Shown here piece after piece: positions 21,835 to 24,394 of a DNA stretch of 24,394 bases (its first letter is position 1; every line of letters starts with the position of its first letter). Where the stretch lies: positions 1-24,394 of the IMG/VR virus record IMGVR_UViG_3300020160_002813; one strand, written 5' to 3'. The notes under the pieces are model-generated. The model worked only from the letters and a program-made list of their open reading frames with translations. It made no database searches and had not been told where the DNA came from. The position numbers were made by a program, and so were the translations under genes. Origin of the DNA: a virus.

Positions 21835-21859
21835 AAAACCACTCATTGAGTGGTTTTTT
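21835..21859. terminator. bidirectional terminator between converging genes
   Basis: Stem AAAACCACTC/GAGTGGTTTT with a 3-base loop followed by further T on the right and A/T-rich sequence on the left. It separates the + strand gene ending at 21832 from the - strand gene ending at 21858. Confidence 0.85.
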
Positions 21860-22394
21860 AGTTTCTTGACTGAACTCTTATTTTATCATATTTTAACATT
21901 AACTTATACATACTATCCCATTCATCATTTGGATTCTCAACCAACTTTTCATTCCATTGATTATTGTTAAAGTATTCAACAATCATACCAACTTTAAAAT
22001 CCTCTTTTTGTTTTGGAATCCAGTATCTTTTCTCTTCAAAGAAAGAAAATGACATTCCTTTGTAAATATAGGAATTATCACAACTTTCATTATATTTAGT
22101 AACACCTAATATTTTTTCTGAACCAGTATTAGATATTTTTCTTGGTTTATTCTCACCTTTATACTTTATAATAGCAGATTCAATATCAAATTTATCAAGT
22201 AAAAATATAATATCATTTCTTAATGAATCACTATCAATAGTACCATATGCTAAAATTGAATCATTGAATACACCTGATTCATAATTCTTCATTTCTAATA
22301 TTTGGTAATCTCTTGAGTATAATACAGATAAAATATCATCTAATTTATCAGACGATATTAATAAATATGATATTTGAGGATTTTCTAAATTCAT
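21858..22394 (-). CDS. hypothetical protein
   Basis: An unrecognised 178-residue protein. Residues 1-100 look like an alpha/beta domain (ISYLLISSDKLDDILSVLYS, then DSILAYGTIDSDSLRNDIIF); residues 110-178 are aromatic and charged (MSFSFFEEKRYWIPKQKEDF). A late-promoter-like TTTAATATATA ends 4 bases ahead of its start. The N-terminal half loosely resembles small ACT- or RNA-binding-like folds, too weak to assign. Confidence 0.65.
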   Translation of the reverse strand: MNLENPQISYLLISSDKLDDILSVLYSRDYQILEMKNYESGVFNDSILAYGTIDSDSLRNDIIFLLDKFDIESAIIKYKGENKPRKISNTGSEKILGVTKYNESCDNSYIYKGMSFSFFEEKRYWIPKQKEDFKVGMIVEYFNNNQWNEKLVENPNDEWDSMYKLMLKYDKIRVQSRN

Positions 22395-22410: not shown

Positions 22411-22563
22411 TTATTTAGTAGTAACTCTAAATATCTCTAATAGTTTACCCATACCAATTTGTTTTATTTCTGCAAAATATTCAATAGCTAATTCCTTTGA
22501 TGGAAAATTTCCTTTTTTAATAACTTCATCAGAAGTCTTTGTTTTTAGATAAAATGTTTTCAT
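22411..22563 (-). CDS. small hypothetical protein
   Basis: A 50-residue ORF (MKTFYLKTKTSDEVIKKGNF at the start, then FPSKELAIEYFAEIKQIG and LLEIFRVTTK) that fills the gap between the genes at 22394 and 22577. Its composition is that of a folded protein (helix with regular aromatic spacing, closing strand) and an A/T-rich leader of the usual kind precedes it. Function unknown. Confidence 0.6.
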   Translation of the reverse strand: MKTFYLKTKTSDEVIKKGNFPSKELAIEYFAEIKQIGMGKLLEIFRVTTK

Positions 22564-22576
22564 ACTCTATATATTT

Positions 22577-23812
22577 TTATATTAAATTAAATTCTTTACT
22601 TATTTCATTTTGAAAGATATTATTTACAATATCTTTGTATTTCTTTTGAACAACAATACTATCATGTATTGTAATTATTTTTATTTCAGGATAAAGATTC
22701 ATTATTGTTTTAATCATTTTATTGAATATAAGATTAGATTCTGCTTTCTGTAAATCATATGCTAAAATTTTATAATCACCATGTTCTTTCTTATATAATT
22801 TAATAAAATTATGAATTGTTGGAAATAATGTCTTAAAAAACTTATCAGATTTACTATTTGCAACATTTCTACCAAATAAAACTTTATAAGTCATTTCTTT
22901 AACCTTTCTCTTATCTTCTTCACCAGTTTGTTCTATAACATACTGGTAATAATAACCATTTGTTGTTAATTCTCTGAATAATTCAAACTCATCTTCTCTT
23001 ACCCATCTACTATCAGATTCTTGTATCAATTTACTTAAAAATAAAGGTTGACTATTCTGTATATCAATCTCACAAGTTTCTTCACCATCAATCATTAAAC
23101 AATTCTTTCTAATAAATGACTTTAATATTGTGTAATTAGTATGCATTCTTCCATAAGCATCAAAATGATAAAAGATATGTTTATTATTTATACACTCAAC
23201 AGAGTAAACATTTCTGTTATAAATATCATAATCTTGATACTTCAATGAGTCTAAGAAAAATATAGCTCTATCAAACTCAATATTAACACTAAATAAGTCA
23301 GAAACTAACTTTTCTTTAACATCAATATCAATTAATGATTCTTTCTCATCAATAGAACTTCCAACCATCTCTACAAACTTACCTTTATACTTTCTCAAAA
23401 GTACTTTGTCATAGTTCTTATATCTTTTAATCTTAGATTTAAAAATATCATCATCTAATGAATATATTCTTGATGTAACACCTGTTTGATATTGTGTCAT
23501 AAGTGCAATTATATTATTATCAATAAGATAATTTATATAATAGTTGTATAAGTAACCATACTTATCTTTTAACACAGTGGCATTAATTGCAAATCTGTTT
23601 TCTTTTTTGAAATAATACTTTAAAATTAGACTATGAACTATATCAATTAAATAATCTGTCTTTAGTTTTGTTTCTTTATAATTTATAGTTTTTATATTCT
23701 CAATATGATATAAACATTCTGGTAAAAATTGAAGTGTAAAAGTTTTATCTTCTACTCTTTTAGATACTATTTGGCTTGATATTTTATTAGTGATTTTGTT
23801 CTCAATATACAT
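22577..23812 (-). CDS. polymerase-like protein: winged-helix-like N-terminus plus family-A-polymerase-like motifs
   Basis: A 411-residue protein not matching any named phage gene I know. Residues ~70-120 read as a winged helix (FAINATVLKDKYGYLYNYYI, then NNIIALMTQYQTGVTSRIYSL), as in plasmid replication initiators. The C-terminal half has, in order, FDAYGRMHTNYTILKSFIR (217-235, like the R-x-H/Y-T element before the palm), CEIDIQNSQPLFLSKL (247-262, motif-A-like with Asp250), RKVKEMTYKVLFGRN (302-316, motif-B-like lysines with a YxxxFG), DLQKAESNLIFNKMI (353-367) and IITIHDSIVV (379-388, motif-C-like His383-Asp384). This order matches the palm and fingers of family A DNA polymerases and T7-type RNA polymerases. 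There is no exonuclease domain. Polymerase or primase activity is inference. Confidence 0.6.
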   Translation of the reverse strand: MYIENKITNKISSQIVSKRVEDKTFTLQFLPECLYHIENIKTINYKETKLKTDYLIDIVHSLILKYYFKKENRFAINATVLKDKYGYLYNYYINYLIDNNIIALMTQYQTGVTSRIYSLDDDIFKSKIKRYKNYDKVLLRKYKGKFVEMVGSSIDEKESLIDIDVKEKLVSDLFSVNIEFDRAIFFLDSLKYQDYDIYNRNVYSVECINNKHIFYHFDAYGRMHTNYTILKSFIRKNCLMIDGEETCEIDIQNSQPLFLSKLIQESDSRWVREDEFELFRELTTNGYYYQYVIEQTGEEDKRKVKEMTYKVLFGRNVANSKSDKFFKTLFPTIHNFIKLYKKEHGDYKILAYDLQKAESNLIFNKMIKTIMNLYPEIKIITIHDSIVVQKKYKDIVNNIFQNEISKEFNLI

Positions 23813-23828
23813 AGTTTTTATATGAAAA

Positions 23829-24029
23829 TTAAACCATATGTTTCAAGATTTTTTCTATTTTTTTCTTTCTCATTTCTCTTCTCAATTCACTAGCTAACAA
23901 TCTTTCTAACTCATCTGATACATCACTATTAATATATGTATTTGATAATTCAGTTGTCCACTTACTTCTAAGTGGTCTTGATTCCGACTTAACAATAACT
24001 TCTTTCATACTTATATTTATCTCATTCAT
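23829..24029 (-). CDS. small T4-like phage protein of unknown function
   Basis: A 66-residue protein whose central segment (RPLRSKWTTELSNTYINSD) resembles the short Arg-Lys-Trp-Thr-x-Glu proteins, or C-termini, found near head genes of T4-like phages. The last third is a basic helix (ELRREMRKKKIEKILKHM). A second in-frame ATG at 24008 would give MKEVIVKSESRPL. It lies 16 bases ahead of the polymerase-like gene, with a TTTTTTATATAAAAATT leader facing it. Confidence 0.6.
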   Translation of the reverse strand: MNEINISMKEVIVKSESRPLRSKWTTELSNTYINSDVSDELERLLASELRREMRKKKIEKILKHMV

Positions 24030-24061: not shown

Positions 24062-24394
24062 ATGAGAGAATATTTATTTGTATATGGGCAGTTCAGAGAT
24101 ACTGCAAGAAAGTTATTAAAGGATCCTGTTTTTTGTGGCAAAGCAACAATTAATGGTAAAATTTATAAAGTCAATGAGTTCTATCCTGGTTTTGTTGATG
24201 GTAAAGGTAAAATATTAGGAGATGTCTATCTAATTGATCCTGTTCTATTTCCAGAACTTGATGAATTTGAAGGTGATGAGTATGTAAGAACTAAAGTAAA
24301 GACATCAACAGATATTGAATGTTGGGTTTATAAATACATTCATGATGTTAAAGGATTTGAAGAGGTTGAAGGTGGAGACTGGTGGCTTAGATAA
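24062..24394 (+). CDS. gamma-glutamylcyclotransferase-like (AIG2/GGCT fold) protein
   Basis: A 110-residue product whose stop codon is the last three bases of the window. It begins with LFVYGQFRDTARKLL, the nucleotide/glutathione-binding loop of the YGxLR type (here YGQFR), continues with KIYKVNEFYPGFVDGKG and GDVYLIDPVLFPELDEFEGDEY, where the Glu in DEFEG is the usual catalytic acid, and ends with WVYKYI. This is the small GGCT/AIG2-like cyclotransferase fold, known in cells to release 5-oxoproline from gamma-glutamyl amines. In phages the substrate is unknown. The gene is divergent from the small gene at 24029 with a GTAAATATATAGTTT leader. Confidence 0.85.
   Translation: MREYLFVYGQFRDTARKLLKDPVFCGKATINGKIYKVNEFYPGFVDGKGKILGDVYLIDPVLFPELDEFEGDEYVRTKVKTSTDIECWVYKYIHDVKGFEEVEGGDWWLR

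Follow-up and report, generated by a model that had tools for sequence, protein, structure and literature searches.

The compact polymerase open reading frame at positions 22577..23812 (minus strand) of a 24,394-bp virus record, which was analyzed at its full length and is hereafter called the window, starts with ATG and encodes a protein of 411 amino acids. Judged by its palm aspartate pair, fingers motif and modeled fold, this protein belongs to the family-A polymerase superfamily (DNA Pol I/T7-RNAP class). The motifs, their conservation, a structural model and profile alignment indicate that this is a real polymerase gene, probably with an active product, and it is likely that the product serves as an accessory template-directed polymerase of family-A fold within a TV-Pol-like or divPolA2-like group, a wide and little-studied assemblage of accessory polymerases or primer-makers found in phages and mobile DNA. 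Features particular to this polymerase family are an invariant DIxNSQP motif, Gln at the steric-gate position occupied by Glu710 in Pol I, HDS as motif C and a fused winged helix. The compact family-A polymerase is a known kind of enzyme; the fused winged helix, DIxNSQP and the Gln gate are what is new. Other products of the window are a T4-like portal protein gp20 (E 4e-59), a thymidylate synthase and an AAA ATPase that weakly resembles clamp loaders; the window is therefore taken to come from a T4-like phage. The phage is put among the very large ones.

The motifs quoted in a preliminary description of this DNA, EIDIQNSQP with Asp250, YKVLFG at residues 309-314 and TIHDS with His383-Asp384, are all present. 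Motif A (residues 248-256; 23045..23071, minus strand, as for all features of the gene below) and motif C (TIHDS, residues 381-385; 22658..22672) supply the metal ligands Asp250 and Asp384, which align with Asp705 and Asp882 of Escherichia coli Pol I, and Gln255 of motif A occupies the Glu710 position. The fingers helix (residues 301-314; 22871..22912) carries motif B as [K/R]xxxK...Y..FG, with K305, Y309 and F313-G314. It is followed by LQKAES (residues 354-359; 22736..22753), which pairs with MQGTAA, the stretch of Pol I that contains Gln849. A beta-hairpin ahead of motif A, YGRMHTN (23135..23155), contains Arg222 and falls opposite the part of E. coli Pol I around Arg668. Profile-profile alignment with a family-A set comprising E. 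coli Pol I, T7 DNA polymerase and phage PolAs paired YGRMH with TGRLS, EIDIxNSQ with SADYSQIE, LQKAES with MQGTAA and TIHDS with QVHDE, all collinear, and placed the K305..FG helix on RRSAKAINFGLIYG of the family-A profile, collinear with the other motifs. The score obtained with the diverse alignment was 34-35 (E about 1e-3) as against a maximum of 19.1 in 60 column shuffles.

Thirteen residues are invariant in all 65 sequences of our alignment A2, most of which are 22-65% identical to the window protein: R222, D250, S254, Q255, P256, Y289, K305, P331, K341, Q355, E358, H383 and D384. The fingers motif is nearly as constant, with [K/R]301 in 62/65, K305 in 65/65, Y/F309 in 62/65, F/Y313 in 65/65 and G314 in 54/65; the position equivalent to Phe762 is Tyr in 50 sequences and Phe in 12, and motif C reads HDS in 64 of the 65. 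Because the key residues never vary in this set and the profile score lies far above that of the shuffles, the motifs can be regarded as real and chance as excluded. Searches of Pfam and PHROG with the window protein gave no family at E<=10, and sequence searches of the PDB with its profiles did not reach solved structures. A Rep_4 match in Pfam (best E 7e-4, 4 of 15 members) and other stray Pfam matches were judged to be due to chance.

An AlphaFold2 model of the protein (pLDDT 89.9, pTM 0.84) retrieved exclusively family-A DNA polymerases or mitochondrial RNA polymerases at Foldseek ranks 1-28 against the PDB, the best matches being apPol, KlenTaq and Mycobacterium smegmatis Pol1 (prob 0.96-1.00), with mitochondrial RNA polymerase as the second group. 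The values themselves are modest (best E 2e-3, TM-scores about 0.4), the low TM-scores arising because the thumb and N-terminus differ. The palm fold, for which the preliminary description had proposed structure prediction as a check, is thus borne out by the top PDB matches, and its assignment to a compact polymerase of the family-A/T7-RNAP class is upheld by the register with Pol I, the model and the 65/65 conservation. Domains in the model follow the order winged helix, putative thumb helices, Arg222 hairpin (strands 215-217 and 223-225) and a palm split by the fingers; no exonuclease segment was found, as had been noticed earlier, all 411 residues being accounted for by winged helix and polymerase core.

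The N-terminal winged-helix-like domain (residues 48-119; 23456..23671) is modeled as helix 52-69, strand 74-77, helix 78-98 and strands 102-106 and 114-119, and winged-helix proteins match this segment weakly in Foldseek. Its wing motif, Y-x-x-G-x-x-S-x-x-Y, is kept from phages to bacteria (Y108 in 27, G111 in 25 and Y117 in 34 of 35 diverse sequences), so that the winged helix proposed from the sequence now has modeled secondary structure and conservation in bacterial relatives behind it. Between this domain and the hairpin the model places helices 136-151, 163-175, 180-188 and 195-209, which may form the thumb.

The protein had been put forward as the most likely undescribed system in the window, a description that no longer fits, since compact family-A polymerases lacking an exonuclease were reported as TV-Pol in 2008 (PMC2579912), as the CCPol-MP primase in 2020 (PMC7581432) and as phage divPolA2 in 2024 (PMC11348598). 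Moreover, the top match of the model in BFVD, A0A8D9FR19 of an uncultured marine phage, is a full-length member of the same family (41% identity, TM 0.93) already entered in UniProt as “putative DNA polymerase I”, although this is a database name only. Next in BFVD are divPolA2-type proteins such as the “DNA polymerase” of Rheinheimera phage Barba31A (E 1e-6 to 1e-5). Compared with E. coli Pol I/Klenow, motifs A, B and C and the hairpin Arg are in register, but the protein has neither a 3'-5' nor a 5'-3' exonuclease, differs in its thumb and N-terminus, and has Gln for Glu710, mostly Tyr for Phe762 and Ser for Glu883.

Members of the TV-Pol family (Iyer, Abhiman and Aravind 2008, PMC2579912) share with the present proteins a compact stand-alone family-A core devoid of nuclease, the hairpin Arg, the two palm Asp residues and the fingers RxxxK. 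They come from mobile elements, viruses, Bacteroidetes and Planctomycetes, the same phyla as most bacterial relatives found here, and lambda-type integrases neighbor several of those relatives, as they do TV-Pols. TV-Pols have a bi-helical antiparallel thumb before the hairpin (PMC2579912), and their N-terminus is the all-helical TV-PolN, in contrast to the winged helix of the present family. Microcystis phage LMM01, the source of a published TV-Pol, gave no match with A2, nor did 50 kb of it match a broader profile; a direct tie to a published TV-Pol is therefore missing, and on sequence grounds we call the family TV-Pol-like and not a proven TV-Pol. The divPolA2 proteins of barbaviruses and other phages are likewise about 430 residues long, with a family-A palm, no exonuclease and an unusual N-terminal globular domain, and occur in phages already equipped with PolB (PMC11348598). 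The divPolA2 example AUR84708 matches our family profile (E 2.4e-4) and the bacterial relative L092 matches phrog_4756, the PHROG of AUR84708 (E 2.5e-5). The similarity is remote, however: AUR84708 has FDE in place of HDS as motif C and lacks DIxNSQP, neither the window protein nor any of the nine related genomes has a phrog_4756 member, and scanning with a single sequence recovered no divPolA2 relatives. CCPol of SCCmec and the PolA-SSB primases is a mobile-element family-A polymerase without editing and with a two-Asp active site, as here, but stands close to Pol I and keeps Glu710 (PMC7581432, PMC10061031). CCPol is itself a TV-Pol and an active polymerase that becomes a primase with MP (PMC7581432). 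Its partners are an OB-fold protein encoded next to it and a helicase, and no gene for either was found beside the one described here. CCPol has Glu and Phe at the two gate positions and accepts dNTPs only.

Relatives of the polymerase number more than 100 in huge phages. Close relatives occur in genomes of 595-735 kb (LR745206, LR756501/2/3/4, LR756511) and in IMG/VR contigs as long as 597 kb; of 134 relatives recovered, 80 were retained. More distant relatives, for the most part 22-29% identical, are encoded on chromosomes of Bacteroidota, Planctomycetota and Ignavibacteriota. Phylogenetic analysis recovered 24 of the 25 sampled phage copies in one clade with one metagenomic “bacterial” contig (100/100). 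The LR756511 copy falls outside this main phage clade and groups with an Ignavibacteriales sequence (90/85), which suggests a second acquisition. In LR756511.1 (393920-396366, minus strand; L124:2921-5367) the gene of the polymerase relative shares 4 nt with another family-A gene, of 428 aa (DNA_pol_A, E 1e-20), placing two different family-A polymerases in one operon; this phage has a Pol III alpha and no PolB match. Near the bacterial relatives, a clustered tyrosine integrase is present in 7 of 26 loci, Pfam confirmed Phage_integrase in all five neighbors checked, and some loci also hold AAA_24 ATPases and DUF3871, which is the mobile-element context reported for TV-Pols (PMC2579912). An ArdC-type anti-restriction gene, fitting a mobile element, lies near the chromosomal relative in Planctomycetota L088 (Pfam) and L090 (clustering). 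Near the phage copies we saw no D5 helicase, resolvase/recombinase, integrase or transposase.

In the window the polymerase is the second of four genes in a minus-strand operon, with a 66-aa gene upstream (23829..24029, 16-nt gap) and a 50-aa gene (22411..22563, 13-nt gap) and a 178-aa gene (21858..22394, 16-nt gap) downstream. The 66-aa product resembles part of the model of the T4-type major capsid protein gp23, from about residue 131 to 195 (PF07068 E 4e-4, phrog_138 E 3e-4), and is kept as a small stand-alone gene in 52 loci; the 50-aa gene accompanies the polymerase in 35 loci, and 81 of 86 loci retain the 178-aa gene. The structure closest to the model of the 178-aa protein is phage T3 SAM lyase (prob 1.00, TM about 0.6 by target), with PII proteins next; the protein may be a regulator of the PII type or an anti-restriction enzyme that depletes SAM. 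This fold rules out the OB-fold SSB partner that the gene had been considered to encode, and hence the CCPol-MP arrangement is absent. In 73 of 86 loci the polymerase is preceded by the gene for a 443-aa protein (e.g., L001:4064-5398, plus strand), which has a mean column identity of 71%, far above that of the polymerase, with no Pfam match and no significant PHROG match. None of the libraries gave a replication-gene identity for the operon neighbors, and no helicase or OB-fold partner was found adjoining the phage polymerase gene. On the opposite strand, a gamma-glutamyl cyclotransferase-like (GGACT) gene (24062-24391, plus; E 3e-20) adjoins the operon.

We searched the genomes or contigs of nine relatives for replication genes. 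PolB was found in eight, mostly as separate parts, in agreement with the earlier expectation that such a phage should have its own replicase; DnaB was found in all nine (eight over the cut-off), a T4-type primase (phrog_47) in seven, and DNA_pol_A and Pol III alpha in one each. DnaG_N was found in none of the nine, but the presence of phrog_47 in seven rules out the idea of a phage with no other primase. The polymerase gene lies 10-20 kb from DnaB in six of the nine, a proximity suggestive of a functional link, although the genomes are related and the chance figure is not a clean test. With PolB and DnaB available in the related huge phages, and a T4-type primase in most of them, we regard the polymerase as an accessory enzyme.

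Catalytic activity of the 411-aa protein is very likely, given its sequence and model. In the palm, Asp250 and Asp384 would coordinate a pair of metal ions, Lys305 and Tyr309 of the fingers helix would bind the incoming nucleotide, hairpin Arg222 would grip the template and the N-terminal winged helix would bind DNA. Bulk replication of the genome would be left to a PolB/DnaB/T4-type-primase replisome encoded elsewhere, a role not expected of the present protein because it lacks an exonuclease and related genomes carry that replisome elsewhere. The product would be short stretches, probably of DNA rather than RNA, made either by de novo priming at origin or restart sites or by gap filling or lesion bypass. 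We put primer-independent initiation at slightly under an even chance; this route would parallel that of the relative CCPol with its partner, but a primase role would be redundant with the T4-type primase in seven of the nine genomes. Because Glu710, which CCPol keeps, is replaced by Gln, sugar selectivity may differ. It is conceivable, if rather doubtful, that the protein is a single-chain prim-pol in which the winged helix provides the template grip that CCPol borrows from its SSB partner and the Gln gate permits rNTP or mixed starts.

The confidences we attach to the alternatives overlap with that of the accessory polymerase proposed above. A repair or lesion-bypass polymerase that extends primers and cannot start chains is a less likely but serious candidate: the exonuclease is absent, the phages have PolB and mostly a T4-type primase, no OB-fold partner is encoded next door, and CCPol alone only extends primers, requiring MP to prime (PMC7581432, PMC10061031). 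Against this, the bacterial relatives lie beside integrases in apparent small integrative elements, a setting usually taken to point to an initiator or primase. That the protein makes RNA, either as an RNA primase or as a single-subunit RNA polymerase in reduced form, using rNTPs on the same palm, with the winged helix reading a promoter or origin, appears unlikely. In favor of it, motif C is HDS and not the HDE of Pol I, Gln replaces the Glu steric gate, mitochondrial RNA polymerases match the model with TM-scores similar to those of Pol I, and the authors of divPolA2 raised the same option (PMC11348598). The family profile resembles Pol I at all motifs, whereas the T7 RNAP profile matches in the motif C region only (E 0.04), which makes an RNA-making version less likely. 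T7 RNA polymerase also has an HDS motif. Single-subunit RNA polymerases have Gly at the gate position, which differs from the Gln found here, and 411 residues are too few for the promoter-recognition parts of the T7 type. For terminal transferase as the main activity and for a promoter-specific RNA polymerase, both entertained in the preliminary description, there was no positive evidence. A catalytically dead family-A remnant with a DNA-binding or structural role would suit a gene that stands apart from the replication genes proper, in an operon with those for a gp23-like peptide and a PII-like protein on either side of it; it is nevertheless highly improbable because a dead enzyme would not preserve its active-site residues, and the metal Asp pair, fingers Lys and hairpin Arg are invariant down to about 22% identity.

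If the single-chain prim-pol were to prove true, it would be a primase of neither DnaG nor AEP descent beside a T4-like replisome. Widespread as it is among huge phages, whose genomes reach 735 kb, this polymerase family escapes Pfam and PHROGs. It ties the polymerases of phages to integrative elements found in Bacteroidota and Planctomycetota. The sequence set assembled here is ready for asking whether a small family-A polymerase can prime alone, and bears on why an extra polymerase is retained by phages already equipped with PolB and a T4-type primase. The DNA_pol_B matches are to two distant open reading frames of about 480-530 aa, each covering different parts of the domain, so that PolB appears to be split between two genes far apart in LR745206.1 (131 and 234 kb), LR756502.1 (122 and 255 kb), L071, L083 and L010.
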